64,000 nt of DNA from Bacteroidales bacterium (GTDB lineage: Bacteria; Bacteroidota; Bacteroidia; Bacteroidales; UBA932). This document shows positions 45,306 through 62,055 of the stretch, piece after piece. Below the pieces are notes generated by a model. The model was given only the letters and a program-made list of their open reading frames with translations, was not told where the DNA came from and did not search any database. Position 1 is the first letter of the stretch. Every line of letters starts with the position of its first letter. The position numbers were made by a program, and so were the translations under genes. The stretch spans positions 1 to 64,000 of the forward strand of contig JAFRPW010000039.1 of assembly GCA_017428945.1 (NCBI GenBank), in the 5' to 3' direction.

Positions 45306-46064
45306 ATGGGAAGAGCATTTGAATTCCGCAAGGAGCGCAAGCTGAAGCGTTGGGGCCACATGGCCAAGACCTTCACCAAACTTGGCAAGGAAATCACCAT
45401 CGCCGTCAAGCAGGGCGGCGCAGAGGTTACCGGCAACCCCCGTCTCCGTGCCCTCATAGCAGAGGCCAAGGCAGAGCAGATGCCCAAGGACAACATCGAG
45501 CGTGCAATCAAGAAGGCTACAGAGGCCAAGACCGGAGACTTCAAGGAACTGGTATACGAGGGCTTCGGCCCCTTCGGCATCGCCTATCTGGTAGAGGCCG
45601 CAACGGACAACAACACCCGTACCGTGGCTAATGTCCGCAGCTATTTCACCAAATGCGGCGGTTCACTCCAGACCAGCGGCAGCGTGGCCTTCATGTTCGA
45701 CCACAAATGCGTCTTCCGCATCAAGGAAGACCCGGCTAAGCCCATCGACATCGAAGAGCTTGAGCTTGAGCTCATTGACTTCGGCGCAGAAGAGGTCTTC
45801 AAGCAGGAGGTGGAGGATGAGGACGAGAACGTCCACGTAGAAATCTCCATCTACGGAGACTACACCGCCTACGGCCAGATTCAGAAGTACATCGAGGAAA
45901 AGGGCTACGAGCTTGTTTCCGGCGGTTTCGAGCAGATTCCTAACGTGGATCTCAAGGAGGTCACCCCTGAGCAGCGTGCCACCCTTGACAAACTCACCGG
46001 CCTCCTTGAGGACGATGAAGACGTCACAAACGTGTACACCACCATGGCTCCTGAGGCTGAGTAA
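45306..46064 (+). CDS. yebC: YebC/PmpR-family DNA-binding regulator or translation factor
   Basis: This 252-residue protein has the family N-terminus MGRAFEFRKERKLKRWG and the middle segment YEGFGPFGIAYLVEAATDN, then a C-terminal acidic domain. YebC-type proteins are described as transcription regulators and more recently as helpers of ribosomes on proline-rich stretches. The stop codon abuts the stop of the convergent LytTR gene, with no base between. Confidence 0.93.
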   Translation: MGRAFEFRKERKLKRWGHMAKTFTKLGKEITIAVKQGGAEVTGNPRLRALIAEAKAEQMPKDNIERAIKKATEAKTGDFKELVYEGFGPFGIAYLVEAATDNNTRTVANVRSYFTKCGGSLQTSGSVAFMFDHKCVFRIKEDPAKPIDIEELELELIDFGAEEVFKQEVEDEDENVHVEISIYGDYTAYGQIQKYIEEKGYELVSGGFEQIPNVDLKEVTPEQRATLDKLTGLLEDDEDVTNVYTTMAPEAE

Positions 46065-47009: not shown

Positions 47010-47052
47010 GACGCTAATTTATAAAAAATGGGTCGAAACTCCAAATTCGTCA

Positions 47053-47103
47053 GCAGTTCGTCTCTTGAAATCTACCGTTCGTCGGGTTTTTCCGTCCGTT
47101 CGT
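47053..47103 (+). promoter_or_regulatory. Three LytTR-type boxes with 21-bp spacing
   Basis: GCAGTTCGT (47053), ACCGTTCGT (47074) and TCCGTTCGT (47095) start exactly 21 bp apart, that is 9-bp repeats with 12-bp spacers. The known LytTR-family consensus is [TA][AC][CA]GTTN[AG][TG]: the second and third boxes fit fully and the first misses only position 1. They lie about 35-90 bp upstream of the glucan-locus -7 box, in the gap shared with the divergent LytTR gene. Confidence 0.75.
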
Positions 47104-47136
47104 ACACGCGCACATACGGGGTTTCGAGCCCTTTCG

Positions 47137-47145
47137 TATCTTTGC
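47137..47145 (+). promoter_or_regulatory. -7 box of the glucan-utilisation operon
   Basis: TATCTTTGC is a full consensus match, 22 bp before the MFS transporter ATG. There is no good TTTG at -33, as expected for an activated promoter. No further promoter is visible before susC. Confidence 0.7.
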
Positions 47146-47167
47146 ATTGCTAAACTGATAACCACTC

Positions 47168-48493
47168 ATGAGTTCCAAACGTAGTTTAAGCTTTGCTCAG
47201 CTTGTTAACCTGAGCTTCGGATTCTTCGGCGTGCAGATTGCCTATGCGCTCCAGAGTGCCAATATCAGCCGTATCTTCGCAACCCTTGGTGCAGATCCCC
47301 ATCAGTTGTCTTTCTTCTGGATTCTCCCGCCCCTCATGGGAATGATAGTCCAGCCGCTCATCGGCAAGTACTCCGACAGGACGTGGTGCCGTATGGGCCG
47401 TCGTAAGCCTTATCTTCTGGTGGGCTCCATCGTGGCGGTCATTGTTATGGCCCTTCTGCCCAATGCCGGAAGCCTCAGTTTCACCACAAGGCTTTTCCTG
47501 GGGCTTAACGGTGCAATGTGGTTCGGCCTGTTCTCCCTTATTTTCCTTGACACTTCCATCAACGTGGCCATGCAGCCGTTCAAGATGATGGTGGGGGACA
47601 TGGTGAACGAGGAGCAGAAAACCACCGCATACAGCATCCAGAGCTTCCTCTGCAATGCCGGAAGCCTGGTGGGTTACCTCTTCCCCATATTCCTTACCTG
47701 GATTGGAATTGCCAATTCGGCCCCCAAGGGAGTCATTCCGGATTCAGTGATTTATTCCTTCTACGGCGGTGCTGCAATCCTTATCCTCTGTGTCCTTTAT
47801 ACTTTCGCCAAGGTTAAGGAAATGCCGCCCAAGGAGTATGCCGAGTTCCATGACATAGACCTTTCCAAACAGGAGGAAGCCCCCAGGGAGGGCCTCCTGA
47901 AGCTTCTGGTGAAGGCTCCCAAGACTTTCTGGACTGTTGGGCTTGTACAGTTCTTCTGCTGGGCAGCTTTCCTATATATGTGGACGTACACGAACGGCGC
48001 AATCGCGCATAACGTGTGGGGAACGGCCGATACCGCTTCTGCAGATTATCAGGCCGCGGGCAACTGGGTTGGCGTCATTTTCGCCGTCCAGGCCATTGGC
48101 TCCATGCTCTGGGCCCTTGTACTGCCCCGTTTCAAGAATGTGAAGGTGGCATACATCGTTTCGCTCCTCGTTGGTGCAGCGGGCTTTGCAAGCGTGTTCT
48201 TCGTGACCAACCAGTATGTTCTGTTTGCAAGCTTCCTGCTCATAGGCGCTGCCTGGGCGGCAATGCTGGCACTTCCTTTCACGCTCCTTACCAACGCCCT
48301 GCAGGGCAGCCCTTACATGGGCTCTTACCTTGGCCTTTTCAACTGCACCATCTGCCTCCCGCAGATTGTGGCAGCAGCAACCGGCGGCCTTGTGATAGGG
48401 CTTGTGGGCGGCAGTCAGCCGGCCATGTTCCTTGTGGCGGCAGGATTCCTGGTGCTGGGCGCCGTTTCAGTGAGATTTATCAAAACCAAATAA
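47168..48493 (+). CDS. MFS sugar transporter (SLC45/MalT-like)
   Basis: This 441-residue inner-membrane carrier has about twelve helices. The N-terminal FGFFGVQIAYALQSANISRI and the SDRTWCRMGRRKPYLL loop resemble the SLC45/MalT type of maltose and sucrose carriers. It should take maltose or malto-oligosaccharides from periplasm to cytoplasm. It is the first gene of the glucan operon, behind the LytTR boxes, and susC follows after 34 bp. Confidence 0.85.
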   Translation: MSSKRSLSFAQLVNLSFGFFGVQIAYALQSANISRIFATLGADPHQLSFFWILPPLMGMIVQPLIGKYSDRTWCRMGRRKPYLLVGSIVAVIVMALLPNAGSLSFTTRLFLGLNGAMWFGLFSLIFLDTSINVAMQPFKMMVGDMVNEEQKTTAYSIQSFLCNAGSLVGYLFPIFLTWIGIANSAPKGVIPDSVIYSFYGGAAILILCVLYTFAKVKEMPPKEYAEFHDIDLSKQEEAPREGLLKLLVKAPKTFWTVGLVQFFCWAAFLYMWTYTNGAIAHNVWGTADTASADYQAAGNWVGVIFAVQAIGSMLWALVLPRFKNVKVAYIVSLLVGAAGFASVFFVTNQYVLFASFLLIGAAWAAMLALPFTLLTNALQGSPYMGSYLGLFNCTICLPQIVAAATGGLVIGLVGGSQPAMFLVAAGFLVLGAVSVRFIKTK

Positions 48494-48527: not shown

Positions 48528-51488
48528 ATGAAAAGGATTTTAACTACAGTAGCTCTACTGCTGGCAGTAACAGCTACAGTATTCGCCCAGGGCGGATACC
48601 AGGTTAAAGGCGTGGTTGAGGACGCAATGGGTCCGGTAATCGGAGCCACCGTCATGGAGGCTGGTACCACCAACGGTACCTCGACAGGCCTCGACGGAGA
48701 CTTCGTACTCCGCGTATCCGGCGCCAACGCCACCATCGAGATCAGCTGCATCGGTTATGCAACCCAGACATTCAAGGCATCTGAGGTTCCCGCCCGCATC
48801 CTGCTGGCAGAGGACACCCATTTCCTTGACGAGGTCGTGGTCATCGGTTACGGTACGGTCAAAAAGAGTGACCTCACCGGCTCCGTTGCAACCGTCAAGG
48901 CTGACGAAGTGAACAAGGGTGTCATCACCACTCCCGCAGACCTCCTGCGCGGCAAGAGCGCCGGTGTGGTTGTCACTGCCGGTTCCGGTATGCCGGGCGC
49001 AGGTGCAACCATCCGCGTGCGCGGTACCTCATCACTGAGTGCAGACCAGACCCCTCTCATCGTCATCGACGGCCTGCCCGTTTCCAATGACGGCATCTCC
49101 GGCATGGGCGACCCTCTGTCCACCATCAATCCCGAAGACATCGAGAGCTTCACCGTCCTCAAGGACGCCTCCTCCACCGCTATCTACGGTTCCCGTGCAT
49201 CCAACGGTGTTATCGTCATCACTACCAAGAAGGGTGCAAGGAATGCCAGCAAGATTCCCGCGGTGGCAATCGACTACACTGCTTCCGTGAACACCGTCGC
49301 CAAGTACAACAAGCTTCTTGACGCAGACGGCATCCGTTCCCTCATCCAGGATTTCTACGGCGCAAACTCCGCCGCTGAGGCCCACCTTGGTACTGCAAAC
49401 ACCAACTGGCAGAAGGAAATCTACCAGGTTGCCCCTACCAATGACGTCAACCTGAGTCTCAACGGCCGTGTTGCCAATATCCCTTACCGCGTGTCCGGTG
49501 GTTTCATCGACCAGGTTGGTACCCTCAAGGGTTCCCGCATGGACAGGGCCACCCTCTCCGTGAACCTGGCTCCCACTTTCTTTGACAATCACCTCACTGT
49601 GAACCTCAACGGAAAGGGCACCTACACCATCACTGCTTTTGCAAACCAGGATGCCATTGGCGCCGCCAACCACTACGATCCCACCAAGCCCGTCTATGAC
49701 GAGAACGGCCTTAACGGCTTCAGCACCTGGTACGACGAGAGCGGCAACATCAACACCATGGCAACCATGAACCCTGTGGGCCTTCTGCAGGCCAAGACAG
49801 ACGTTGCTAACGCTGTCCGTTTCATCGGAAACGCCCAGTTCGACTATAAGATCCCCAGCTTCGAGAAACTCCGCCTCAACCTGAACCTCGGTATAGACAA
49901 GGCAAAGAGCGGCGGCATCACTGAACTGGCTCAGGGCTCCGAGGCTTCTTACCATAACACCAACCAGTCCGGAGGCGGTTCCCACACGGAGTACTCCTAT
50001 GGCCGTACAGACAGGACCCTGGAGTTCTATGGCGACTACAACGACACCTTCGGAGACACCAACCTTGACCTCATGGCCGGCTACTCCTGGCAGCACTTCT
50101 ACAGCGAGAGCCAGAGCAGTTCCAAGCGTATCAGCGACGAGAGCTCCCTCGGAGAGAGCGTAGGCAAAGGCGAGCTTTACCTGGTATCTTTCTTCGGCCG
50201 TGCAAACTACAGCGTAGCAGACAAATACCTTGTAACCGCAACGCTCCGCGCCGACGGTACTTCCCGTTTCCAGAACCACAAGTGGGGTATCTTCCCCTCC
50301 GTGGCATTCGGCTGGAACATGCTTAAGGAAAGCTTCATGAGTTCCATGGCAGACAAGCTCTCAACTCTGAAGATGCGTCTTTCCTGGGGCCAGACCGGCC
50401 AGCAGGCAGTGGGCGGATACTACGACACGTTCGCACAGTTCCTCACCACCCAGCTTGGTTCCTATTACTTTACGGACGCTTCCGGCAACTATACCAACCC
50501 CATCGCAGCTCTGGGTTATTCCGCAGACCTCCGCTGGGAGACCACCACAACCTACAACCTCGGTTTTGACTGGGGCATGAACCAGGACCGCATCACCGCA
50601 TCCCTGGATCTCTACAAGAGGGACACCAAGGACATCCTCAACTACATCCCCGTTCCGGCACTGTCCAACCTTACCAACTACCTCAACACCAATATCGGAT
50701 CCATGACAAACACCGGTGTTGAACTGGATATAAACGCAGTGCTCATGGAAACCAGGGACATCAGCTGGACCGCAGGCTTCAACGTTGCATACAACCACAA
50801 CGTTATCACCAAGCTCACCGCGGCTGACTCCGACGCCACCGGCGTAGAGACCGGCGGAATCTCCGGCGGTACCGGAAACAACGTACAGCGCTTCCAGGTA
50901 GGCCAGCCCATGAACGTGTTCTATGTGTACCAGCAGGTATATGACAAGGAAGGCAGGCCCATCAGCGGCGTCTATGTAGACCGCAACAACGACGGCCAGA
51001 TCAACGCTGACGACAAGTACTTCTATCACAAGCCTTTCGCAGACTTCACCTTCGGTTTCAACACCAGCTACACCTATAAGAACCTCACCGTTGCCCTCAA
51101 CGGACACGCTTCCCTTGGCAACTGGGTCTACAACAACGTAGCATCCGACACCGAAATGCTTGCAGACCTCTGGACCAACAGCTTCATCGGCAACCGTCTT
51201 GCTTCTGCAACGCACTCCCGCTTCTCCCAGGCTCAGTACCTGTCTGACTACTACGTGAGGGATGCTTCCTTCCTGAAGCTTGACAACCTCACCGTCAGCT
51301 ACAACTTCCCCAAGCTCTTCGAGATTGTGAAGGACCGTCCCGCAGCACTCACCGTGTTCGGAACCATCCAGAACCTTTGCACCCTTACCAGGTACGACGG
51401 TATCGACCCTGAAGTATACGGCGGTATCGACGGAACCATGTATCCCCGTCCCCGTACTTTCGTAGGCGGCGTCAAGTTCAACTTCTAA
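48528..51488 (+). CDS. susC: SusC-like TonB-dependent transporter
   Basis: This 986-residue outer-membrane transporter has a signal peptide (cut near residue 20), a carboxypeptidase-like regulatory domain (residues 22-100), the hallmark DEVVVIGYGTVKKSDLTGSV near residue 104, a plug and a large barrel that ends in KFNF. With SusD it forms the gated pump that imports oligosaccharides at TonB expense. It is followed by susD after 13 bp. Confidence 0.94.
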   Translation: MKRILTTVALLLAVTATVFAQGGYQVKGVVEDAMGPVIGATVMEAGTTNGTSTGLDGDFVLRVSGANATIEISCIGYATQTFKASEVPARILLAEDTHFLDEVVVIGYGTVKKSDLTGSVATVKADEVNKGVITTPADLLRGKSAGVVVTAGSGMPGAGATIRVRGTSSLSADQTPLIVIDGLPVSNDGISGMGDPLSTINPEDIESFTVLKDASSTAIYGSRASNGVIVITTKKGARNASKIPAVAIDYTASVNTVAKYNKLLDADGIRSLIQDFYGANSAAEAHLGTANTNWQKEIYQVAPTNDVNLSLNGRVANIPYRVSGGFIDQVGTLKGSRMDRATLSVNLAPTFFDNHLTVNLNGKGTYTITAFANQDAIGAANHYDPTKPVYDENGLNGFSTWYDESGNINTMATMNPVGLLQAKTDVANAVRFIGNAQFDYKIPSFEKLRLNLNLGIDKAKSGGITELAQGSEASYHNTNQSGGGSHTEYSYGRTDRTLEFYGDYNDTFGDTNLDLMAGYSWQHFYSESQSSSKRISDESSLGESVGKGELYLVSFFGRANYSVADKYLVTATLRADGTSRFQNHKWGIFPSVAFGWNMLKESFMSSMADKLSTLKMRLSWGQTGQQAVGGYYDTFAQFLTTQLGSYYFTDASGNYTNPIAALGYSADLRWETTTTYNLGFDWGMNQDRITASLDLYKRDTKDILNYIPVPALSNLTNYLNTNIGSMTNTGVELDINAVLMETRDISWTAGFNVAYNHNVITKLTAADSDATGVETGGISGGTGNNVQRFQVGQPMNVFYVYQQVYDKEGRPISGVYVDRNNDGQINADDKYFYHKPFADFTFGFNTSYTYKNLTVALNGHASLGNWVYNNVASDTEMLADLWTNSFIGNRLASATHSRFSQAQYLSDYYVRDASFLKLDNLTVSYNFPKLFEIVKDRPAALTVFGTIQNLCTLTRYDGIDPEVYGGIDGTMYPRPRTFVGGVKFNF

Positions 51489-51501: not shown

Positions 51502-53061
51502 ATGAAAACTATCAATTATATCCTTGGTATCGTTGCAGCAGCTGCAACCATTACCTCCTGCGTCGGAGACCTCAACGTAACTCCTATCGACCCCAACGCC
51601 AATACGGCTGATAAGGCCCTTGTTGACGAGGCATCTTTCCAGAGCTTCCTCTCCGGAGTGTATCTGGGATTTGCCACTTCCGGTTACTACGGAGCCAACG
51701 GCTCTCCTTCCATTTCCGGTCTTGACGGCGGTGCTTCACAGTACATCCGCGGTCTGTATCATCACAGCGAACTCACTACAGACGAGTCCGTATGCGGCTG
51801 GAACGACCAGACCATCAAGAACTTCCACTATATGAACTGGACCACGGACGACTCCTTCATCTATGCCTTCTATTCCCGCATCTTCATGCAGGTGGGCATG
51901 GCCAACGAGTTCATCCGCGAGGCCAAGAACACCCCGGTGGAATTCGCTTCCAAGCAGCAGATGATTGACGAGGCCCGTCTCCTCCGTGCCATTGCATATT
52001 ACCATGCAATCGACAACTTCGGAAACGTCCCCTTCGCCGATGAAACTGCTATCGTGGGTGTTAACCCCGACCAGATTTCCCGTGCCGACCTTTATGCATG
52101 GCTTGAGAAAGAGCTTGTAGACCTCGTGGACAACAGCACCCTTCCCGCAAAGGGCGCTACCACCAGCCGCGCCAGCAAGGGTGCTGCACAGTTCCTGCTT
52201 GCAAAACTCTACCTCAACGCCAAGGTTTACACCGGAACAGAGGCATACGACAAGTGCGCCGCTGTCCTCAAGAACCTCATCAATGGCGGTGGTTATTCCC
52301 TGCACACCTCTTCTGCCGGAACATATCCTGCATACCAGGAGCTCTTCCTCGCAGACAATGACCGCTGCAATGATGAAATCATCTTCGCAGTGGAGCAGGA
52401 CGGTGTAAACACCACCAGCTACGGTGCTACCAACTACATCATCTTCGCTTCCACCGGCGGTGAGATGGATCCTGCGGCAGCAGGCATTTCTTCCGGTTGG
52501 GGCGGCCTCCGCATGACTCCGGAGTTCTACAACAAGTTCTCTGACGGTGATGCCCGTAAGCTCTTCTACACCGCAACCCAGCAGGCCAGCATCGACGATA
52601 TCGGCGAGTTTACCCACGGCTATGCCTTCATGAAGTTCCTCAACATGACTTCTGCAGGTGCCGCTGGTAAGGAATCCGGCTTTGTCGATACAGATTTCCC
52701 CATGATGCGTTATGCAGACGTTCTCCTCATGGCGGCAGAGTGCGAACTCCGCGGTCAGGCAGTTGACGGGTATGCCGGTTACAAGGCCGTCCGCCAGCGT
52801 GCAGGCCTCAGCGCCACCGCTCCTGCAAACCTTGACGAGGTCCTCGACGAGCGCGCCCGCGAACTCTATCAGGAGTGCTGGAGGCGTAACGACCTTATCC
52901 GCTTCGGAAAGTTCACTTCCGGTTACAACTGGCAGTGGAAGGGTAACGTGAAGGAAGGCAAGGATGTTGACAAGGGCAGGGAACTGTTCCCCATCCCGGA
53001 CAGCGACCTCCTTGCAAACACCAAGCTTCAGCAGAACGAGTACTACAAGTCTGCCGAATAA
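51502..53061 (+). CDS. susD: SusD-like glycan-binding lipoprotein
   Basis: This 519-residue RagB/SusD protein has a lipobox (TITSC, residues 16-20) and helical TPR-like repeats. RADLYAWLEKELVDL and DFPMMRYADVLLMAAECELRG are typical of the family. It acts as the lid of SusC at the cell surface and holds starch-like glycans. The position between susC and the SusE-like gene is canonical. Confidence 0.93.
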   Translation: MKTINYILGIVAAAATITSCVGDLNVTPIDPNANTADKALVDEASFQSFLSGVYLGFATSGYYGANGSPSISGLDGGASQYIRGLYHHSELTTDESVCGWNDQTIKNFHYMNWTTDDSFIYAFYSRIFMQVGMANEFIREAKNTPVEFASKQQMIDEARLLRAIAYYHAIDNFGNVPFADETAIVGVNPDQISRADLYAWLEKELVDLVDNSTLPAKGATTSRASKGAAQFLLAKLYLNAKVYTGTEAYDKCAAVLKNLINGGGYSLHTSSAGTYPAYQELFLADNDRCNDEIIFAVEQDGVNTTSYGATNYIIFASTGGEMDPAAAGISSGWGGLRMTPEFYNKFSDGDARKLFYTATQQASIDDIGEFTHGYAFMKFLNMTSAGAAGKESGFVDTDFPMMRYADVLLMAAECELRGQAVDGYAGYKAVRQRAGLSATAPANLDEVLDERARELYQECWRRNDLIRFGKFTSGYNWQWKGNVKEGKDVDKGRELFPIPDSDLLANTKLQQNEYYKSAE

Positions 53062-53073
53062 TAATATAGGAAT

Positions 53074-55698
53074 ATGAAAAAGTTATATGCTATACTTTCT
53101 GCAGGTGTCATGGCCCTCATGGCAGTGTCCTGCGTGCAGGAGCAGTTTGCCGTATACGATGAAACCAAGATTACAGCTCCGGTGCTTGGCACCTACAATG
53201 TAGCCGAGGACGTCATTACGGCCAACTACACCCCTGCCAAGATGGAGCTGGGCTTTAACGAGAATATCGCCCCTTCACACACCCTTGCCGTCGTATCCCT
53301 TAACGGTGAACCCCAGAGCAAGTCTCTTACCACCACCAACGACGGTGCAACCCTTACCCTCAAGACCGTGAACCTTGCCAAGGCCCTCATGACCCTCGGT
53401 GCAAAGGAAGGCAGCAACGCAAATGTTGAACTCGCAGTCCGCGCAACCCTCCAGGATGTGGCTAAGGATAACGGTGTCAACGGTTATAAGGATTCTGAGA
53501 AGCACATTGTCATCAGCGGCTTCGCTGTTGTTATCCCCGAGCAGGTAGGAAGCCCGTACGAGGAGTACACCGAGGCTAGTGCATGGAGCCTCATCGGCGC
53601 CATGGCAGCATATGAGATCAACTGGGACGGCGACCTCAACATGTGGGCAACCGCCGACGGAAACCAGCATGTTGCCGCTCACGTCACCCTCAAAGCCGGT
53701 GACGAGGTCAAGTTCCGCAAGGACCAGGCCTGGACTGAGAACATGGGCGGTGACTTTGCCACTGTCGGCGACGAATTCGCAGTAGCCCAGGATGGTGCCA
53801 ATATCAAGATTGCAAAGGACGGTGTCTACGACCTCTTCCTTGACCTCTCTGCAGGTACTGCAATCGTGGCAGAGGCCTTCGATCCCTATCCTGATTTCAA
53901 TCAGGCCTCCAACTGGACCGTCATCGGTGCACTCTCAAAGGTAGGTATCAACTGGGACGGCGATGTTGACATGGTCAGCGACGGTACCGTAAGCGCCGCT
54001 TTCTCCGTAGCCATCGGTGCTGATGATGAGTTCAAGTTCCGTCAGGACAAAGCATGGACAGTGAACCTGGGTGGTGAATTCGGCGGTATCGATACCGACT
54101 TTGCCGTAGCTCAGGACGGAGCCAACATCAAGGTTGGCACAGAGGGTGTCTACGACCTCTTTGTGGATCCTTCCGCAAGCACTGCCAAGGTAAGCCCTGC
54201 CGCCGGCGTCAAGGTCTCCACCAAGATCGGTGCCGACACCCCGGAACCTCCTCAGCCCGTGGAGGTAAAGGGATGGAACATCATCGGCCTCAACGGAGAC
54301 TGGGATAACGACGTCCTCGCTACCGAGAAGGACGGTGTCTGGACTGCCTTCATCACTGCATCAGAAGCTACCACATTCAAGTGGCGCAAGGATGGAGGAT
54401 GGGACGAGAACTATGGCGTTGCCGATGGCGCAACCGCTACCGTAGGTACTCCTTTCGCCGTTTCAAACGGCGGTGCAGACATCCCTGTGGAAGCCGGCTT
54501 CTACAAGGTTGAACTCAACCTCACCAATTCAGAGGCCCCTACCGTCACTATCTACAGCGACTTTGAGATCTACTCCCTCATCGGCGACTTCAACAGCTGG
54601 GGTGGCGACGTTGACATGACAGAGACCGAGCCCGGTATCTGGGTAAGCCCTGCTACCGCCCTTACCGCGGCGGGCTTCAAGATCCGCAGCGGCCATGACT
54701 GGTCCCTCAGCTATGGCGGTACTCTTGTTGAACTTGGCGTTGAATTCGACGCAGTGAGCGACAACGGTCCCAACATCGCTGTTCCTGCTGACGGAGAGTA
54801 CATCGTCACCTTCAACAAGAACACCCTCAAGATAAAAGTGGATCCCGCCCTTCCTTCCAACACCTGGAGCCTCATCGGCGTAAACGGTGATTGGAACAAC
54901 GATGTATTCATGTCTGAGGTTCTTCCCGGTGTCTGGGTGAGCCCCGAGGTTGAAATCACCTCCGCAGGCTGGAAGATTCGTTTCAACCATGGCTGGGACG
55001 TGAACCGTGGCGGCGCCCTTGATGCAGAGGGTGTCTTTGCCAAGGCTGTTCCCGGTGGTAACGATATCAACCTTACCGGTAAATTCAAAGTTGTGTACAA
55101 TGCCAACAACGAAACTATCGGCACCCTTGTCTGGGGTATCGTCGGAAAGATTGCATCCATTGACGGCTTCAACTGGAACAACGATGTTCCCATGAACCTT
55201 GGTTCTGACGGCAAGTGGTACAGCATCCCTGTCGCCCTTGCTGCAGATGATGAAATCAAGATTCGCCAGTATGCAGCCTGGACTGTGGACCGCGGCGGTG
55301 CTTGCACCGAAGCAAATGCAGCCTTTGAGGTGACTCAGGGCGGCTCCAATATCAAGGCGCCTGCAGCCGGTACTTATATGCTTGTTTACGATCCCGCTGC
55401 CGAGACCATTACCCTGAGTACTGACTTCTGGGGGCTTATCGGTGACTTCAACTCATGGGGCGGAGACAAGTTCATGCTCTATGACGGTGCCAAGTGGGTA
55501 GCTTACGGCCAGGCACTTACAGGTGGCTGGAAGATTCGTAATGCTGCTGCATGGACTCTGAGCGTAGGCGGTACATTCGCAGAGGCCGGCACTCCGTTCG
55601 CTGCAGTCAGCGACAACGGCCCCAACATTACTGTTACCGGTCTTGACTCATTCGATATCGAATACGATACCACAGCACAGACCATCACTGTGAAGTAA
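53074..55698 (+). CDS. SusE-like surface binding lipoprotein with seven tandem modules
   Basis: This 874-residue lipoprotein (lipobox AVSC at 17-20) has a SusE-type N-terminal domain (about 25-155) and then seven tandem SusE/SusF-like carbohydrate-binding modules. They begin near residues 171, 281, 401, 500, 598, 687 and 786, each with a W/Y..IG start and a KxRxxxxW...GG core (for example FRKDQAWTENMGG). Modules 1 and 2 are closest to each other. B. thetaiotaomicron SusE and SusF carry two and three such modules. It should bind starch at the surface. A terminator follows. Confidence 0.85.
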   Translation: MKKLYAILSAGVMALMAVSCVQEQFAVYDETKITAPVLGTYNVAEDVITANYTPAKMELGFNENIAPSHTLAVVSLNGEPQSKSLTTTNDGATLTLKTVNLAKALMTLGAKEGSNANVELAVRATLQDVAKDNGVNGYKDSEKHIVISGFAVVIPEQVGSPYEEYTEASAWSLIGAMAAYEINWDGDLNMWATADGNQHVAAHVTLKAGDEVKFRKDQAWTENMGGDFATVGDEFAVAQDGANIKIAKDGVYDLFLDLSAGTAIVAEAFDPYPDFNQASNWTVIGALSKVGINWDGDVDMVSDGTVSAAFSVAIGADDEFKFRQDKAWTVNLGGEFGGIDTDFAVAQDGANIKVGTEGVYDLFVDPSASTAKVSPAAGVKVSTKIGADTPEPPQPVEVKGWNIIGLNGDWDNDVLATEKDGVWTAFITASEATTFKWRKDGGWDENYGVADGATATVGTPFAVSNGGADIPVEAGFYKVELNLTNSEAPTVTIYSDFEIYSLIGDFNSWGGDVDMTETEPGIWVSPATALTAAGFKIRSGHDWSLSYGGTLVELGVEFDAVSDNGPNIAVPADGEYIVTFNKNTLKIKVDPALPSNTWSLIGVNGDWNNDVFMSEVLPGVWVSPEVEITSAGWKIRFNHGWDVNRGGALDAEGVFAKAVPGGNDINLTGKFKVVYNANNETIGTLVWGIVGKIASIDGFNWNNDVPMNLGSDGKWYSIPVALAADDEIKIRQYAAWTVDRGGACTEANAAFEVTQGGSNIKAPAAGTYMLVYDPAAETITLSTDFWGLIGDFNSWGGDKFMLYDGAKWVAYGQALTGGWKIRNAAAWTLSVGGTFAEAGTPFAAVSDNGPNITVTGLDSFDIEYDTTAQTITVK

Positions 55699-55757: not shown

Positions 55758-57752
55758 ATGAAAAAGATCATTTATACACTTGCAGCCCTGTTAGTTGCTC
55801 TCTCATGCATCAAGATGCCGGACAGCGGCAAGGGTAATAATAATGGTAATGGTAACGAAGGTAACCAGACCGTCGTTACAGATAAACAGGCGAACATTAC
55901 CTACCAGCTCCTTATCTATTCGTTCTCCGACAGCGACGGAGACGGAGTAGGGGACTTCAAGGGCATTCAGAATAAGTTGGATTATCTGGAGAGCCTGGGA
56001 GTATCGGCCCTGTGGCTGTCCCCGGCCCATCCCACCAGTTCATATCACGCATACGACGTGAACGACTATTATTCGCTGAACCCCCTATATGCGGTTGGAG
56101 AGAAAACCACGGCCAAGGCGGAGGCGGATTTCAAGGAACTCCTTGCCGCAGCGCACGCCAAGGGCATTTCCATCTACATGGACTATGTCCTCAACCACAG
56201 CGGAAAGTTCAATCCCTGGTTCCAGGAAGCCGTGTCAAATCCTACCAGCAAGTACAGGGACTACTATTTCTTCAGCTCCAATCCTTCATCGGAATACAAG
56301 AATTTCCCCATGCTCAAGGGTACTTCCTACAATTCCGGCGAGTGGAAGCAGGTAACAAGCGGCTCTCCCAAGCTCACCATAACAAAGACTTCCGAGAGCG
56401 TCACCAACGGTACGGACAGCTGGAATCTGTATATGTGGGACGCCTCCGGAGACTCCGGTGCCAAGACCGTGAAGTTTGTCAGAAGAAATGATGGTACGTA
56501 CTATCTGGTAATGGATATCAACGGCCAGTGGGGAATCCTTGTCCGCAAGTATGCCAACTGGGACGCCGGTTCCAAGTTCGGCGCAAAAACCGCAACCACA
56601 ATCCAGGAGGGCGTAGCCGTTGACCTTGTTGCCGACGGCGCAGACATGTCCTTCACCGGAAGTGGCCGCTATAAGATTGAACTCACCGATGTCGCAACGG
56701 AAACCCTCTACTACATGGGCTGCTTCAGTGACTGGATGCCGGACCTGAACTACGGCGATGTCTCCCAGGCAGAGAACAATCCCTGTTTCAAGGACCTTGC
56801 AGCATCGGCCGACAAATGGATCAACATGGGAGTAGACGGATTCCGTCTGGATGCAGTAAAGCACATCTGCGGCGGTATCGGTTCCTACAACAATACTTCC
56901 AACATTACTCTGCTGGGCAAGTGGTACGACCACTGCAACGCAACGTACAAGGCCGCCGGCCACACGGACAATATATTTATGGTAGCAGAGGCCTGGGACG
57001 GCCACAACATAGAGAAGACCTACTACAAGGGCCTTACCTCCTGCTTCGAGTTCGACTTCGGCTACAAGCTCCGCGATGCCATCAAGGGCGTCAATGCAAA
57101 CGGTTTTGCCACCGTAGTGGGCGGGTTTGTGTCTGACCACACGGCCCAGCGTCCCGATGCCGTTACCTCCTTCTTCCTCAGCAACCACGACCAGAACCGT
57201 TTCTCCTCCGAGATAGGCAGGAATCTGGACAAGCAGAAACTTGCGGCTGCAGTCCTTCTTACAGTTCCCGGCAAGCCCTTCATCTATCAAGGCGAGGAAC
57301 TGGGCTACTGGGGCACCAAGGACGGCGGCGACGAGTATGTCCGTACGCCAATCCTCTGGGACAAGGCCGGAACCCAGTGCGCAAAGAAAGGCGTAGAGAA
57401 CAAGGTTGACAATTCCATGCTCACTGCCGATATTTCCGTTGAGGCCCAGCAGGCAAACAACGCTTCCATCCTGAACGTTTACAAGAAATTCGCAGCCGCC
57501 AGGAACTCCTCCAAGGCGCTGGCCAGCGGCGCCATCAAGGAAGTCAAATCCGGCAACAACGCCGTAGGAATGTGGGAGATGAGCTCCGGATCTGATAAGG
57601 TCCTGGTAATCCATAATTTTGGCGGAGCAAATGTGAACGTCCAGGTTTCCGGTTATTCTACAGAAAACGAACTTGTCTCCAACGGAACTATCGGAAAGAC
57701 CGGAAACGGTGTCTCCGTAGGTGCATATTCATCGGTAGTATATAAACAGTAA
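55758..57752 (+). CDS. susG: SusG-like surface alpha-amylase (GH13 with inserted CBM58-like domain)
   Basis: This 664-residue lipoprotein (lipobox ALSC at 14-17, then IKMPDSGKG) is a GH13 enzyme that cuts starch to oligosaccharides at the cell surface. Catalytic residues appear as Asp365 (GFRLDAV), Glu411 (VAEAWDG) and Asp478 (SNHDQNR). An extra domain at about residues 195-320 splits the barrel, matching the place of CBM58 in SusG. No promoter of its own is visible after the preceding terminator. Confidence 0.93.
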   Translation: MKKIIYTLAALLVALSCIKMPDSGKGNNNGNGNEGNQTVVTDKQANITYQLLIYSFSDSDGDGVGDFKGIQNKLDYLESLGVSALWLSPAHPTSSYHAYDVNDYYSLNPLYAVGEKTTAKAEADFKELLAAAHAKGISIYMDYVLNHSGKFNPWFQEAVSNPTSKYRDYYFFSSNPSSEYKNFPMLKGTSYNSGEWKQVTSGSPKLTITKTSESVTNGTDSWNLYMWDASGDSGAKTVKFVRRNDGTYYLVMDINGQWGILVRKYANWDAGSKFGAKTATTIQEGVAVDLVADGADMSFTGSGRYKIELTDVATETLYYMGCFSDWMPDLNYGDVSQAENNPCFKDLAASADKWINMGVDGFRLDAVKHICGGIGSYNNTSNITLLGKWYDHCNATYKAAGHTDNIFMVAEAWDGHNIEKTYYKGLTSCFEFDFGYKLRDAIKGVNANGFATVVGGFVSDHTAQRPDAVTSFFLSNHDQNRFSSEIGRNLDKQKLAAAVLLTVPGKPFIYQGEELGYWGTKDGGDEYVRTPILWDKAGTQCAKKGVENKVDNSMLTADISVEAQQANNASILNVYKKFAAARNSSKALASGAIKEVKSGNNAVGMWEMSSGSDKVLVIHNFGGANVNVQVSGYSTENELVSNGTIGKTGNGVSVGAYSSVVYKQ

Positions 57753-57756
57753 GAAA

Positions 57757-58803
57757 ATGAGATTTTTACCCGCGCTTTGCCTTCTGGCCGCAGTTTCCTG
57801 CATAGAGATGCCGGAATCGGGCGGAAAGAAAGAAGAGAACAAGGATAATAATACCGTAACCGTGCCCGCATTTGCAAAGGGTGCAGACATAAGTTGGGTT
57901 ACGGAAATGGAGAGCAAGGGCTATGGCTTCTACTCGTCCACAGGTCTTCCCATAGAGTGCACGGCGCTTATGAAGGAACTTGGCTGCAATGCCATACGCC
58001 TCCGCGTCTGGGTAAACCCCACCGACGGATGGTGCAATAAGGACGATGTCCTTGTAAAAGCAAAGCGGGCAAGCGAGCAGGGCATGGCCCTCATGATAGA
58101 TTTCCACTATTCCGACTGGTGGGCCGATCCGGGCAAGCAGAATCCTCCTGCAGCCTGGAAAGACATGGATGTGAGGGCAATGGCATCCGCCCTTGAAGCA
58201 CACACCAAAGAAGTTCTTCAACTCCTGAAGGACAATAAGATAGATGTAGCGTGGGTCCAGGTTGGAAATGAGACCAATACGGGCATGTGCTGGCCTAACG
58301 GCAGCGTTTCAAGCCAGTCTGCCCAGGGGTTTGTGACTCTTGCCAATGCCGGTTACAAGGCAGTCAAGGAGGTTTATCCGTCGGCACTTGTAATCCTTCA
58401 TCACAGCAATGCACAGGAGTATGCAGCAAACGAGTGGTTCTATGGCCTTGTAGGTGCAGCCAGCTATGATATGATAGGTCTTTCTCTCTATCCTTCCTAC
58501 TGGCAGGACGGCGGCTATCCTGACTGGACTCCTTTCTGCAAAGCAGCTGTTGAGAATTTTGCAAAACTGAACCAGAAGTTCAAAAAGCCTGTAATGCTGG
58601 TGGAATTCGGCATGCCGGCATCGGAGCCGGACAAGGCCAAAGCCGCGTTCCAGTATGTTCTGGATGGGGTAAAAGGCCAGGACTGGTTCAAGGGCGTATT
58701 CTGGTGGGAGCCGGAGTCCGAGCAGTCCCGTAACGGCTATGCATACGGCGCTTTCAAGGACGGAAAATCCACAGGTGTAATTGAATTGTTCAAGAATTAT
58801 TGA
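57757..58803 (+). CDS. GH53 endo-beta-1,4-galactanase-like lipoprotein
   Basis: This 348-residue lipoprotein (lipobox AVSC at 12-15, then IEMPESGGK) has GH53 landmarks: FAKGADISWVTEMESKGYGF, CNAIRLRVWVNP, MIDFHYSDWWADPGKQ, the acid/base VQVGNETNTGM near residue 169 and the nucleophile VEFGMP near residue 282. GH53 enzymes cut beta-1,4-galactan in pectin. Its place between starch enzymes is unusual. Its leader peptide resembles that of the SusG-like gene before it. It follows that gene after four bases. Confidence 0.88.
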   Translation: MRFLPALCLLAAVSCIEMPESGGKKEENKDNNTVTVPAFAKGADISWVTEMESKGYGFYSSTGLPIECTALMKELGCNAIRLRVWVNPTDGWCNKDDVLVKAKRASEQGMALMIDFHYSDWWADPGKQNPPAAWKDMDVRAMASALEAHTKEVLQLLKDNKIDVAWVQVGNETNTGMCWPNGSVSSQSAQGFVTLANAGYKAVKEVYPSALVILHHSNAQEYAANEWFYGLVGAASYDMIGLSLYPSYWQDGGYPDWTPFCKAAVENFAKLNQKFKKPVMLVEFGMPASEPDKAKAAFQYVLDGVKGQDWFKGVFWWEPESEQSRNGYAYGAFKDGKSTGVIELFKNY

Positions 58804-58806
58804 TAT

Positions 58807-60723
58807 ATGAAGCGTATAGTTTTTGCGCTTGCCATTGCGGCAGCCCTTTTCTCCTGCGCCCCCAAGGCCGATTATTCTTCGGTGCCGATGGCAAAGCCGG
58901 AGCAGATTTCGCAGGTTGAACCGCTGTCATGGTGGACGGGAATGAATACCCCGCTCCAGATTATGGTGCACGGGCCGCAGATTTCGGATTTCAATGTTGC
59001 AGTTGAGGGCTCCGGCCTCCGCGTGATGGCCGTTCACAAGGCGGACAGCCCCAATTACCTTTTCCTGGACATGGAGGTGCGGAAGGCAGGGGAGTACAAT
59101 CTGGTTTTCACCCGCGGAGAGGAGAGCTTCAAGTATCCTTATATAATACGCGAGCGCGAGGCCGGCAGCCGTGACAGGCTCAGCTATACCACGGCCGACA
59201 TGATCTACCTCATTATGCCGGACCGCTTTGCATCGGCCACTTCCGAGAACGATACCATGGGCATGCCCGATGTAGTGGACCGCACCGATCCCGTCGCCCG
59301 TCATGGCGGGGACCTTCAGGGAATCATCGACCACCTGGACTATATTGCCGACCTTGGCGCCACCGCCATCTGGCTCACTCCGGCGCTTGAGGACAACCAG
59401 CCCCACGAGTCATATCACGGCTACGCCTGCACGGACTATTATCACATAGACGCCCGTTTTGGCGATAACGCCAAGTATAAGGAACTGGTGGAAAAGGCCC
59501 ATGAGAAAGGCCTCAAGGTGATTATGGACATAGTCACCAACCACTGCGGCACCGCGCACTGGTGGATGCAGGACGCTCCCTTCAAGGACTGGTACCATGT
59601 GAACGAGCCGTATATGCAGATGAACGCCCTGTTCTCCGTATACATGGATCCCAACGCCGCCAAGGTTGACAGGAACCGTCAGGAGAGCGGCTGGTTTGTT
59701 CCCAGCATGCCGGACATGAACCTTGACAACCCGTTTGTACTGAGGTATTTCCAGCAGTGGGCCGTATGGTGGGCAGAGTATTCCGGCCTGGACGGCTTCC
59801 GCGTGGATACCTATCCGTACAACGAGCCGGAACCCATGAGCAAATGGTGCAAGGCCGTGCTTGAGGAGTATCCCAACTTCAACATAGTGGGAGAGTGCTG
59901 GGATATGAATATCCCGCAGGTTGCCTACTGGCAGAAGGACAATCCCAACAAGAACGGTTTCAACTCCAACCTTCCTTCAATCATGGATTTCCCTCTGGAG
60001 CATGCCATGATTACCGCCATGTGCGAGGACCAGGTATGGTGGGACGAGGGCATGACCCGCATCTACACCGTCCTTGGCCAGGACTTCGTCTATAAGGACC
60101 TCAGCCACATGATGACCTTCTTTGCCAACCACGACCACGCCCGTACCGGTGATATCCTCCGCCAGGATCCTGCCAGGATGAAGCTCATCATTACGCTCCT
60201 TGCAACCATACGCGGCATCCCCCAGCTCTATTACGGGGACGAGATGATGTTCCTGGAGCGCAAGGACTGCCAGAGCCACGACGGTGCCAAGCGTATAGAC
60301 TTCCCCGGCGGCTGGGAAGGAGACAGCATAGACCTTTTCTCTGCCGATGGCCGTGCAAGCGCCCCTGCAATGTACGCATCGGCCGCAGACCTTCACGACT
60401 ATACCCGTACCCTTTTCCAGTGGAGAAAGGGCTGCAAGGCCGTTCAGGAAGGAAAGACGCTTCATTTCCTTTCCCGCAGGAACGTGGGCTCCCGCAACAT
60501 TACAGACAATACATACTCCTTCTTCCGCTATACGGATGACGATGCTGTATTCGTATACGTCAACAACACCTTTGAAGACCGCACCCTTGACTGGAATCAT
60601 TATTCGGAGTTCGTTTCCGGTCCGGTAAACGGCAGGAACGTCCTTACCGGAGAGAACATCGTCCTTGAGAATGGTGTAAAGATTGGCCCCAAGAGCGCAC
60701 TTGTAGTTGAATTCAAACGCTAA
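58807..60723 (+). CDS. susA: SusA-like GH13 (neopullulanase/cyclomaltodextrinase type)
   Basis: This 638-residue GH13 enzyme has an N-terminal beta domain (about 35-120) as in cyclomaltodextrinases, then DMIYLIMPDRF, GFRVDTYPY with the nucleophile, VGECWD with the acid and FANHDHARTGD. It should degrade malto-oligosaccharides. The start (MKRIVFALAIAAALFSCAPK) is lipobox-like, so it is probably a lipoprotein, possibly facing the periplasm. It follows the GH53 gene after three bases. Confidence 0.9.
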   Translation: MKRIVFALAIAAALFSCAPKADYSSVPMAKPEQISQVEPLSWWTGMNTPLQIMVHGPQISDFNVAVEGSGLRVMAVHKADSPNYLFLDMEVRKAGEYNLVFTRGEESFKYPYIIREREAGSRDRLSYTTADMIYLIMPDRFASATSENDTMGMPDVVDRTDPVARHGGDLQGIIDHLDYIADLGATAIWLTPALEDNQPHESYHGYACTDYYHIDARFGDNAKYKELVEKAHEKGLKVIMDIVTNHCGTAHWWMQDAPFKDWYHVNEPYMQMNALFSVYMDPNAAKVDRNRQESGWFVPSMPDMNLDNPFVLRYFQQWAVWWAEYSGLDGFRVDTYPYNEPEPMSKWCKAVLEEYPNFNIVGECWDMNIPQVAYWQKDNPNKNGFNSNLPSIMDFPLEHAMITAMCEDQVWWDEGMTRIYTVLGQDFVYKDLSHMMTFFANHDHARTGDILRQDPARMKLIITLLATIRGIPQLYYGDEMMFLERKDCQSHDGAKRIDFPGGWEGDSIDLFSADGRASAPAMYASAADLHDYTRTLFQWRKGCKAVQEGKTLHFLSRRNVGSRNITDNTYSFFRYTDDDAVFVYVNNTFEDRTLDWNHYSEFVSGPVNGRNVLTGENIVLENGVKIGPKSALVVEFKR

Positions 60724-60729
60724 ACCGAT

Positions 60730-62055
60730 ATGAAAAAGATCCTTGTTATCGCCGCCGCAGTGCTGGCAATGGCTTCCTGCTGCAAGAAGCAGAGCCCCCA
60801 TCCGGAGTGGACATACAGCTCCGTAGTTTACGAAGTGAATATCCGCCAGTTCTCGCCGGAAGGCACTTTTGCAGGCGTTGAAGCCCAGCTTCCCCGCCTG
60901 AAAGAGCTTGGCGTGGACGTCCTCTGGCTCATGCCCATGTACGAGATAGGCACCGTAGAGCGCAAGGGCAGCCTTGGCTCCTACTATGCAATATCGGACT
61001 ACAAGAAGGTGAATCCGGAGTTCGGCACCATGGACGATTTCCAGAGCCTGCTGGATGCCGCACATGCGCTCGGGTTCAAGGTAATCCTTGACTGGGTGGC
61101 CAACCAGACCGCCCCGGACCACGTCTGGATGAGAGAAAAGCCCTCGGGATTCTACGAGAGAGACGCAGACGGCAACGCCATCTGGGAATACGACTGGACA
61201 GACACCCGCTCCCTCAACTATGAGAACCAGGAAGTCTGGTGGGCCCAGGACGATGCAATGCGTTTCTGGCTTGAGAAGGGGGTGGACGGCTTCCGCTGCG
61301 ACGCCGCCGGCGAGGTCCCTGCAGAATTCTGGAAGGGAATCCTCCCCAAGATGAATAAGGACTACCCTGACATTTACCTCCTTGCAGAGGCAGAACGCGA
61401 CAACCTGGCCGATCCCGCCGAGACCTTCGACGCCAACTACGCCTGGGAACTCCATCACCTTCTGAACAGCCTCTCACAGGGAAACAAGACAGTCCAGGAC
61501 CTCAAGGATTATGTTGCACGTGACCTGGAGCGCTTCGGGAAGCAGGCATTCCGCCTCACTTTCACCTCCAACCATGACGAGAATTCATGGGCCGGTACCG
61601 AGTTCGAGCGCGAGGGCATCTACGCCAACGCATGCGCAGTCCTCTGCTTCACGCTCCCCGGCAGCCAGCCGCTCATCTATACCGGTCAGGAGATTGGCCT
61701 GAACCGCCGTCTGGCCTTCTTCGAGAAAGATCCCATCACGGACTGGAGCGCCAACGAGTACACCTGCTTCTGGAAAAAGCTTGTTGAACTCAAGCATGGC
61801 AACCCCGCCCTTGCAGCCGGCGAGAGGGGAGGAGAGATAACCTGGTGGGAGGTTCCGGTTCCCGAGACCGTGGTCGCATTCTCACGTGAAGTGAAAGACA
61901 ACCAGGTAATTGTGATAGCCAACTTTGGCAAGGAACCCTACAACCCTGTATTCAACCTTCCCGGTGCTTACAAAAACCACTTCACCGGAGAGAATATAGA
62001 GAGCCCCTGCGAGCTTTCCATCGCTCCCGGAGAGTACGTTGTGATTACCAAGTAG
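60730..62055 (+). CDS. Short GH13 alpha-amylase-like lipoprotein
   Basis: This 441-residue GH13 enzyme has a lipobox (ASCC near residue 17) and the catalytic pattern GFRCDAAG, LLAEAERD and TSNHDENSW. It lacks the N-terminal domain of the preceding enzyme. It probably acts on short glucans left by the other two enzymes. It is the last gene of the glucan operon and converges on the acyl-ligase gene three bases away. Confidence 0.88.
   Translation: MKKILVIAAAVLAMASCCKKQSPHPEWTYSSVVYEVNIRQFSPEGTFAGVEAQLPRLKELGVDVLWLMPMYEIGTVERKGSLGSYYAISDYKKVNPEFGTMDDFQSLLDAAHALGFKVILDWVANQTAPDHVWMREKPSGFYERDADGNAIWEYDWTDTRSLNYENQEVWWAQDDAMRFWLEKGVDGFRCDAAGEVPAEFWKGILPKMNKDYPDIYLLAEAERDNLADPAETFDANYAWELHHLLNSLSQGNKTVQDLKDYVARDLERFGKQAFRLTFTSNHDENSWAGTEFEREGIYANACAVLCFTLPGSQPLIYTGQEIGLNRRLAFFEKDPITDWSANEYTCFWKKLVELKHGNPALAAGERGGEITWWEVPVPETVVAFSREVKDNQVIVIANFGKEPYNPVFNLPGAYKNHFTGENIESPCELSIAPGEYVVITK

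Follow-up and report, generated by a model that had tools for sequence, protein, structure and literature searches.

The window, which is the whole analysed stretch of 64,000 nucleotides from a Bacteroidales bacterium, contains a sus-type alpha-glucan operon that begins with the gene of an MFS sugar transporter and is separated by a short gap from the divergently oriented gene of a LytTR regulator (Table 1). Both components expected of a Sus-type starch locus were found in the operon, namely a SusC/SusD pair (matches to TIGR04056 and SusD_RagB) and a SusG-type alpha-amylase with CBM58, for which a location on the cell surface is predicted. Together with the GH13 matches, these genes bear out the preliminary description, which had read the operon as a sus-like starch system. 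Downstream stretches were also fetched for 20 of the 40 loci from related genomes that are described below. All 20 encoded alpha-glucan enzymes (SusG-like, other GH13, pullulanase-like or SusB-like), and in three of them (L174, L176 and L185) these enzymes were located mainly past a second susC/D pair. The operon of the window additionally contains a gene of GH53, a family known for beta-1,4-galactan; GH53 matches were observed in 5 of the 20 downstream stretches of the relatives and also at the locus of G130, a genome of another Bacteroidales family.

Table 1. Features of the LytTR regulator gene, the divergent gap and the alpha-glucan operon (positions in the window).
Feature	Position	Strand	Basis and remarks
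yebC, flanking the regulator gene opposite the gap	45306-46064	convergent to regulator gene	Adjoining gene
One-component regulator, 314 aa	46065..47009	-	Membrane sensor at residues 1 to about 185, linker, LytTR at residues 212-312
Divergent gap, 158 bp, with operator and promoter	47010..47167	no strand	Read from the sequence and the ORF bounds
LytTR box 1 (distal), GCAGTTCGT	47053-47061	+	Read directly; box model
LytTR box 2, ACCGTTCGT	47074-47082	+	Read directly; box model
LytTR box 3 (proximal), TCCGTTCGT	47095-47103	+	Read directly
-7-like element, TATCTTTG	47137-47144	+	Fits the consensus TAnnTTTG
MFS sugar transporter, first gene of the operon	47168..48493	+	MFS_1 4.4e-19; TIGR01301 sucrose symporter model 72.1 bits, far below its cut-off of 511
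SusC-type TonB-dependent transporter	48528..51488	+	TIGR04056 716.4 bits
SusD-type starch-binding lipoprotein	51502..53061	+	SusD_RagB 1.5e-31; NF033071 SusD 350.5 bits, below its cut-off of 725
SusE/F-like outer-membrane protein	53074..55698	+	Assigned by position; CBM_48 match slightly below cut-off
SusG-type alpha-amylase with CBM58	55758..57752	+	Alpha-amylase 9.1e-69, SusG_CBM58, SusG_C
GH53-family glycosidase within the alpha-glucan operon	57757..58803	+	Glyco_hydro_53 1.6e-73
GH13 cyclomaltodextrinase / neopullulanase-like (SusA-like)	58807..60723	+	Alpha-amylase 8.7e-61, Cyc-maltodext_N and _C
GH13 alpha-amylase-like, probable final gene of the operon	60730..62055	+	ORF; similarity to the other GH13 genes, without Pfam scan

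The length of the gap follows from the bounds of the two divergent ORFs. The three 9-bp repeats within it start at positions 47053, 47074 and 47095 and are thus spaced by exactly 21 bp, as was read directly from the sequence, and the TTCGT of the proximal box starts 38 bp upstream of an element that fits the Bacteroidetes -7 consensus TAnnTTTG. No TTTG that could represent a -33 element was found elsewhere in the 158 bp: the single TTTG of the gap is part of the -7-like box, and the -33 element is therefore absent. The preliminary description had noted the regular spacing of the repeats, their position just upstream of a -7 box that lacks a -33 box, and the LytTR gene diverging from the same gap, and each of these statements was confirmed. 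What sets the repeats apart from chance is their phasing rather than the abundance of their core, as the 7-mer CGTTCGT occurs five times in the window against 5.72 expected occurrences and is not enriched. The two-box score of the gap was reached by none of 200 dinucleotide shuffles when the box model was trained without the window gap and its near-copy. Targets of the LytTR family are described as paired 9-bp direct repeats with spacers of 10-13 bp (PMC11347149, in excerpt), and the boxes found here, of 9 bp with 12-bp spacers and conserved among relatives, correspond to this pattern.

A Pfam search of the regulator placed the LytTR domain (PF04397) at residues 212-312 (E 1.8e-15; 57.3 bits against a cut-off of 22.6) and detected no other family in the protein at E 0.001, whereas the hydrophobic peaks of the hydropathy profile are consistent with about six membrane segments ahead of this domain. 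These results support the earlier reading of a membrane-bound one-component LytTR protein, with the combination of membrane sensor and LytTR domain in one ORF that characterizes CoxC. Several other classes were considered for the regulator and rejected. An MHYT sensor domain is not consistent with LytTR being the only Pfam match, and neither is a hybrid regulator of the HTCS type, in which a single polypeptide carries a periplasmic sensor, a kinase, a receiver and an AraC HTH. Membership of the window protein in a LytS/LytR two-component system was dismissed in view of the missing His_kinase and Response_reg domains, and membership in the LRS group in view of the missing membrane inhibitor gene, the neighbours being the convergent yebC and the divergent MFS gene. 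No chain of a solved structure was related to the regulator at E 0.01.

The regulator was searched for in 150 genomes, comprising the own genome and relatives, and was matched in 99 of them; these genomes are draft assemblies, many of which are incomplete and fragmented. By our count of the listed matches, 62 of the 90 relatives from the same genus carried a match and 28 did not. Forty loci from 40 same-genus genomes were fetched first, a second batch consisted of 19 regions (from 15 additional genomes, together with second loci from three), and 7 of the 62 genomes, whose regulator matches were weak (E 1e-12 or worse), were left out. In 37 of the 40 fetched loci the LytTR regulator was divergent from an MFS gene. 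The remaining three were a short contig (L071), a locus with GH13 genes in place of the MFS gene (L073) and one with both genes on the same strand (L076). The MFS gene was followed by a susC match in 33 of the 37 divergent loci; in L043, L064 and L067 the contig ended first, and in L061 GH13 genes occupied this place.

Over the 37 homologous gaps, 37 pairs of TTCRT motifs at a distance of 21 bp were counted, whereas 300 shuffles yielded 0.18 on average and never more than 2. At least two exact TTCRT motifs with this spacing were present in 24 of the gaps, and three in 13. A leave-one-out box model, from whose training the tested gap and its close relatives were each time excluded, ranked all 38 gaps (the 37 and that of the window) among the best 5% when compared with 200 shuffles, and the score was reached by no shuffle in 36 of them, by two in L048 and by one in L064. 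The model obtained from this first set also recovered boxes in all 14 further MFS-linked regions of the second batch (0 of 200 shuffles each). Among the five second-batch regions without MFS gene, boxes were found in L206 only and not in L189, L204, L205 and L207, the contig of L189 ending about 600 bp past the regulator. Chance repeats were rejected as an explanation on the basis of the pair counts (37 versus 0.18) and of the box model, which passed in all gaps and in the further MFS loci. The alignment of the gap across related genomes, by which the preliminary description had proposed to judge the boxes, thus came out in their favour: the phased boxes are kept in 38 of 38 and 14 of 14 cases, and most spacer columns vary.

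The consensus of the boxes is (A/G/T)C(A/C)(A/G)TTC(A/G)TC, with T also possible before TTC according to the box model. In an anchored profile of the 30 gaps that contain the element TAnnTTYG (the 8 gaps without it were dropped), the starts of TTCRT were most common 38, 59 and 80 bp upstream of this element (13, 10 and 9 cases, respectively), and others were displaced by one base to either side. For the promoter model these 8 gaps and 10 others, which had a shifted or missing box or were near-duplicates, were dropped. All 14 invariant columns in the resulting alignment of 20 promoter regions fell into the boxes or the -7 element, an invariance that is partly due to selection since the rows were chosen for having the -7 element and the boxes. 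The boxes of L043, L044, L045 and L047 were shifted as a group by about one helical turn, and the proximal box was missing in L041, L042 and L046. The gaps of these last three loci contain a palindrome, ATTCCCGTAGGGAAT, between the boxes and the -7 element, which looks like a second operator.

When the own genome was searched with the promoter profile, the promoter of the window was the sole strong match (47.1 bits, E 4e-12), and the next-best matches were partial ones, with 16.5 bits at E 0.015 and 15.4 bits at E 0.03. The regulator therefore looks dedicated to the MFS-sus operon. The 16.5-bit match (C35:39734-39789, minus strand) is also located within the window and covers the proximal box and the -7 part only. 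The motif TTCRT-N16-TTCRT matched 41 times in the own genome versus 27 times for the reversed control. Outside the window, one TTCRT pair with a -7 box 36-40 bp further on was detected, on contig C32 before a lipoprotein-like gene, and one TTCRT triple on C25 had no such -7 box. A regulon with multiple targets in the own genome was rejected on these grounds, that is the 41 matches against 27 in the control and the single strong site of the promoter profile. At the site on C32 (L145:2696-2762, genome G000, the own genome), an unrelated LytTR two-component pair is followed by the two TTCRT boxes at 21 bp, with TACTTTTG located 38 bp on and ahead of the lipoprotein-like gene, which is the same spacing rule.

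The single-protein form of the regulator in the window is the exception among its relatives. Two adjacent ORFs forming a two-component pair were present in 35 of the 40 loci, a single ORF in four (L038, L039, L040 and L074) and a LytTR domain alone in L052. Pfam was run on two pairs from the genus (L043 and L049) and on that of G092, and His_kinase and Response_reg were present in all three; in L043 and L049 one protein carried His_kinase and the other Response_reg and LytTR. The PHFLFN-type phosphorylation box occurs in the kinases of all 35 pairs and is absent from the four other fusions, and the receiver Asp motif was recognized in 34 of the 35 regulators with a loose pattern. Compared with the L049 pair, the window protein consists of the kinase part and then the regulator part, joined end to end without a gap: residues 1-194 of the kinase match positions 47009-46455, and residues 125-259 of the regulator match positions 46454-46068. 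The ends scatter more when all 35 pairs are considered, with kinase matches ending at window residues 92-215 and regulator matches starting at residues 157-202.

A tree calculated from the sensor and LytTR columns (40 rows), from which L052 was left out because it has no sensor, required two changes of architecture, and the constraint of the five fusions to one clade was rejected (AU p 0.023). Two fusion events were likewise required in a tree of LytTR sequences that included three two-component proteins as outgroup, and L052 was placed as a third reduction, at weak local support and with a long-branch warning; the long-branch rows L063 and L048 render the tree less sure. According to these trees, the one-component switch of the window lineage looks derived from a two-component pair, the apparent ancestor being a LytS/LytR-type system, and two origins of fusions within one genus are indicated. 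The operator boxes are shared by the fusion loci and L052. The latter locus (L052:7430-7780, genome G088) encodes a bare LytTR protein of 116 amino acids without a sensor, next to which the boxes remain, and a search of G088 with the window regulator found no other match.

As the genomes are draft assemblies, the one-component form might be an artefact of assembly or annotation, i.e., a two-component locus with a false deletion. However, the same architecture was found in G051, with a 97% identical regulator, and in G056 (68%), and G084 and G045 show it separately; moreover, each fusion is encoded by a single uninterrupted frame, and the linker is not the same from one group to the next. On this comparative evidence such an artefact appears unlikely in the extreme, and the reading of a genuine fusion is retained.

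In the membrane part of the sensor, residues H11, F13, A14, H17, C24, D31, L35, T36, C47, N65, G68, T86, T90, E91, G94, W95 and R133 (a partial list) are invariant or nearly so in at least 38 of the 40 aligned rows, fusions included. Another alignment (A2), in which full response regulators were mixed with the sensors, was dropped because it placed the receivers over the membrane part.

A survey of 119 genomes across the order found the sensor in 4, which are the own genome, another one of the genus, and G092 and G130 from two other Bacteroidales families. The latter two genomes additionally contain sus genes and a LytTR two-component pair. In G092 the genes for kinase, regulator, a pullulanase-like protein, MFS transporter, SusC and SusD follow each other on one strand, and a TTCAT and a TTCGT are situated 21 bp apart downstream of the regulator gene, without a TAnnTTYG 38 bp past these two putative boxes. 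In G130 the MFS-susC-susD genes and the sensor-kinase-regulator genes are located at the starts of two contigs that share an identical end stretch, and putative boxes of a variant form (TTCAG) at a distance of 21 bp lie 38 bp before TAATTTTG. The sensor frame of G092 (L126:17009-17332) and that of G130 (L128:86-433) end with an in-frame stop before the kinase ORF, and the sensor may therefore be a separate small membrane protein in these genomes. In G110, which belongs to another family, a gene for a LacI-type regulator (L130:7145-8158) was observed between the MFS gene and susC, so that the regulator of the MFS-sus module seems to have been swapped during evolution.

The preliminary description had also stated that no SusR is seen at this locus. 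As SusR query, the DUF6377 protein adjoining a sus locus of another family (G199) was used, a putative SusR by its position and domain. This query had no SusR-family match in the window or in the 40 core loci, and the statement holds for the locus. It does not hold for the genome as a whole, which encodes two DUF6377 paralogues of the SusR family on contigs C47 and C1 (27% identity to the query), and SusR-family matches were obtained in 64 of 101 genomes of the genus. The two distant paralogues could act in trans on the operon. A match next to a second susC/D pair was furthermore found in 2 of the 20 downstream stretches. In these two close relatives (L170:5569-7149 in G003 and L181:7547-9127 in G068), the SusR-family gene is situated after susG and before the second susC/D pair, possibly reflecting two loci side by side with different regulators.

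These matches raise the alternative that a SusR-family protein encoded elsewhere controls the operon and that the LytTR boxes serve the divergent regulator gene alone. Such control would be compatible with the two paralogues, with the frequency of the family in the genus and with its gene between susG and the second susC/D pair in the two relatives, but it is at odds with the lack of a SusR-family match in the window and the 40 core loci, with the paralogues being only 27% identical to the sus-linked query and with the position of the boxes, which in the majority of gaps possessing an MFS-side -7 element is linked to that element. We therefore consider it very unlikely that a SusR-family protein takes the place of the LytTR regulator at this operon, and the boxes may serve the divergent regulator gene additionally or instead.

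Taken together, the gap is most likely the operator-promoter of the alpha-glucan operon, and the divergent gene probably encodes its dedicated membrane-bound LytTR activator. The basis of this interpretation is formed by the boxes, their phasing of 21 bp, the usual distance of 38 bp to the -7 element, their joint conservation with the regulator, and the match of the latter to the two halves of the pairs. From these features we infer that the LytTR domain binds the boxes and activates transcription in response to a signal. This signal, perhaps maltose or a maltodextrin handled by the neighbouring MFS carrier (a guess from the gene context), would reach the conserved membrane sensor and alter how the LytTR domains pair or are exposed. 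With two or three boxes occupied, the LytTR units would line up along the same face of the DNA, immediately upstream of the absent -33 element, and would recruit RNA polymerase for an MFS-susC-susD-susE-susG-GH53-GH13-GH13 transcript. In most relatives examined, the signal would be passed on by phosphorelay from the kinase to the receiver-LytTR protein, and in the window lineage the kinase and receiver domains would have been lost and the sensor joined directly to LytTR, with the operator being kept.

The direction of this control, activation, is suggested by the missing -33 element and the position of the boxes. CoxC provides the counter-case, and by analogy to it the regulator could act as a repressor and keep the promoter shut as long as alpha-glucan is lacking: CoxC is a membrane-bound LytTR protein that acts at three direct repeats and represses (PMC11347149, in excerpt). 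However, the repeats of CoxC overlap its -35 box, whereas most LytTR regulators bind upstream of the -35 box and activate (same excerpt), and the proximal box described here is located upstream of the place expected for a -33 element, this element itself being missing. Repression thus seems unlikely, and activation is the preferred direction. A more speculative extension, which we regard as possible but rather doubtful, is that a previously undescribed family of membrane sensors, with H-x-F-A-x2-H ... T-E-x2-G-W ... R conserved in its membrane part, reads alpha-glucan uptake directly, perhaps by contacting the MFS carrier, and drives the same operator either by phosphorelay or by fusion to LytTR, or is dispensable. 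If this were true, the genus would represent a natural series for the stepwise reduction of a two-component to a one-component switch in which the DNA sites were not rewired.

Individual elements of the system have known counterparts. Membrane LytTR regulators are already known from CoxC and from the LRS-like operons of Bacteroides (PMC11347149, PMC6193735, both in excerpt). CoxC of Afipia carboxidovorans (MHYT-LytTR) resembles the window regulator in uniting a membrane sensor and a C-terminal LytTR domain in one protein, in having three direct repeats at its target promoter and in controlling the cluster that encodes it, but it differs by its MHYT sensor (CO sensing), by boxes that overlap the -35 element, by repression and by its alphaproteobacterial origin (PMC11347149, in excerpt). 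RcoM1 of Paraburkholderia xenovorans, likewise a one-component LytTR protein, has three direct repeats, TTCNNGCA, at intervals of 12-13 bp; it binds upstream of -35 and activates, and has a heme sensor domain binding CO in contrast to the membrane sensor found here (PMC11347149, in excerpt). The LRS systems (HdrRM/BrsRM and the LRS-like operons of Bacteroides) share a LytTR regulator and direct repeats just upstream of the promoter, which tend to be located 10 bp upstream of -35, and the LRS-like regulators of Bacteroides also have membrane segments ahead of the DNA-binding domain. In contrast to the window locus, LRS operons contain a membrane inhibitor gene together with the regulator gene and are autoregulated, and the repeats of the Bacteroides representatives measure 11 bp with 11-bp spacers, with no link to sus loci described in the excerpted text (PMC6193735).

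The LytS/LytR-type pairs of the relatives share the sensor, the LytTR domain, the operator and the synteny with the window locus, whose protein differs in lacking the kinase and receiver domains. The collapse of a pair into one protein is likewise already known: Rsp of Neisseria gonorrhoeae, a chimera of the PilS receptor and the PilR DNA-binding domain, is a precedent for the conversion of a pair into one membrane regulator (cited in PMC10269533, in excerpt). Rsp belongs to different protein families, and the present case differs further by two origins in one genus and by a bare-LytTR form. The Sus/SusR system of Bacteroides thetaiotaomicron is similar in its SusC/SusD/SusG-type proteins and in being switched by a membrane protein whose DNA-binding domain lies in the cytoplasm, SusR being, unlike the window regulator, a member of another protein family. 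The regulators named for glycan loci of Bacteroides in the main text of PMC3878776, from which these features of Sus/SusR were also taken, are SusR-like proteins, HTCS and ECF sigma/anti-sigma factors, and the string 'lytt' has 0 occurrences there. No description of LytTR systems over starch loci was found in the open-licence literature, which was searched mostly at listing level.

A genus of uncultured Bacteroidales, together with single genomes of two further families, thus appears to use LytTR switches for alpha-glucan loci. The operator code, TTCRTC every 21 bp and usually 38 bp upstream of the -7 box, is readable, and the regulated promoter can therefore be predicted directly from the sequence. 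Furthermore, one operator that is served by a two-component pair, by a membrane fusion or, in one case, by a bare LytTR protein offers a comparison for the contribution of the phosphorelay.
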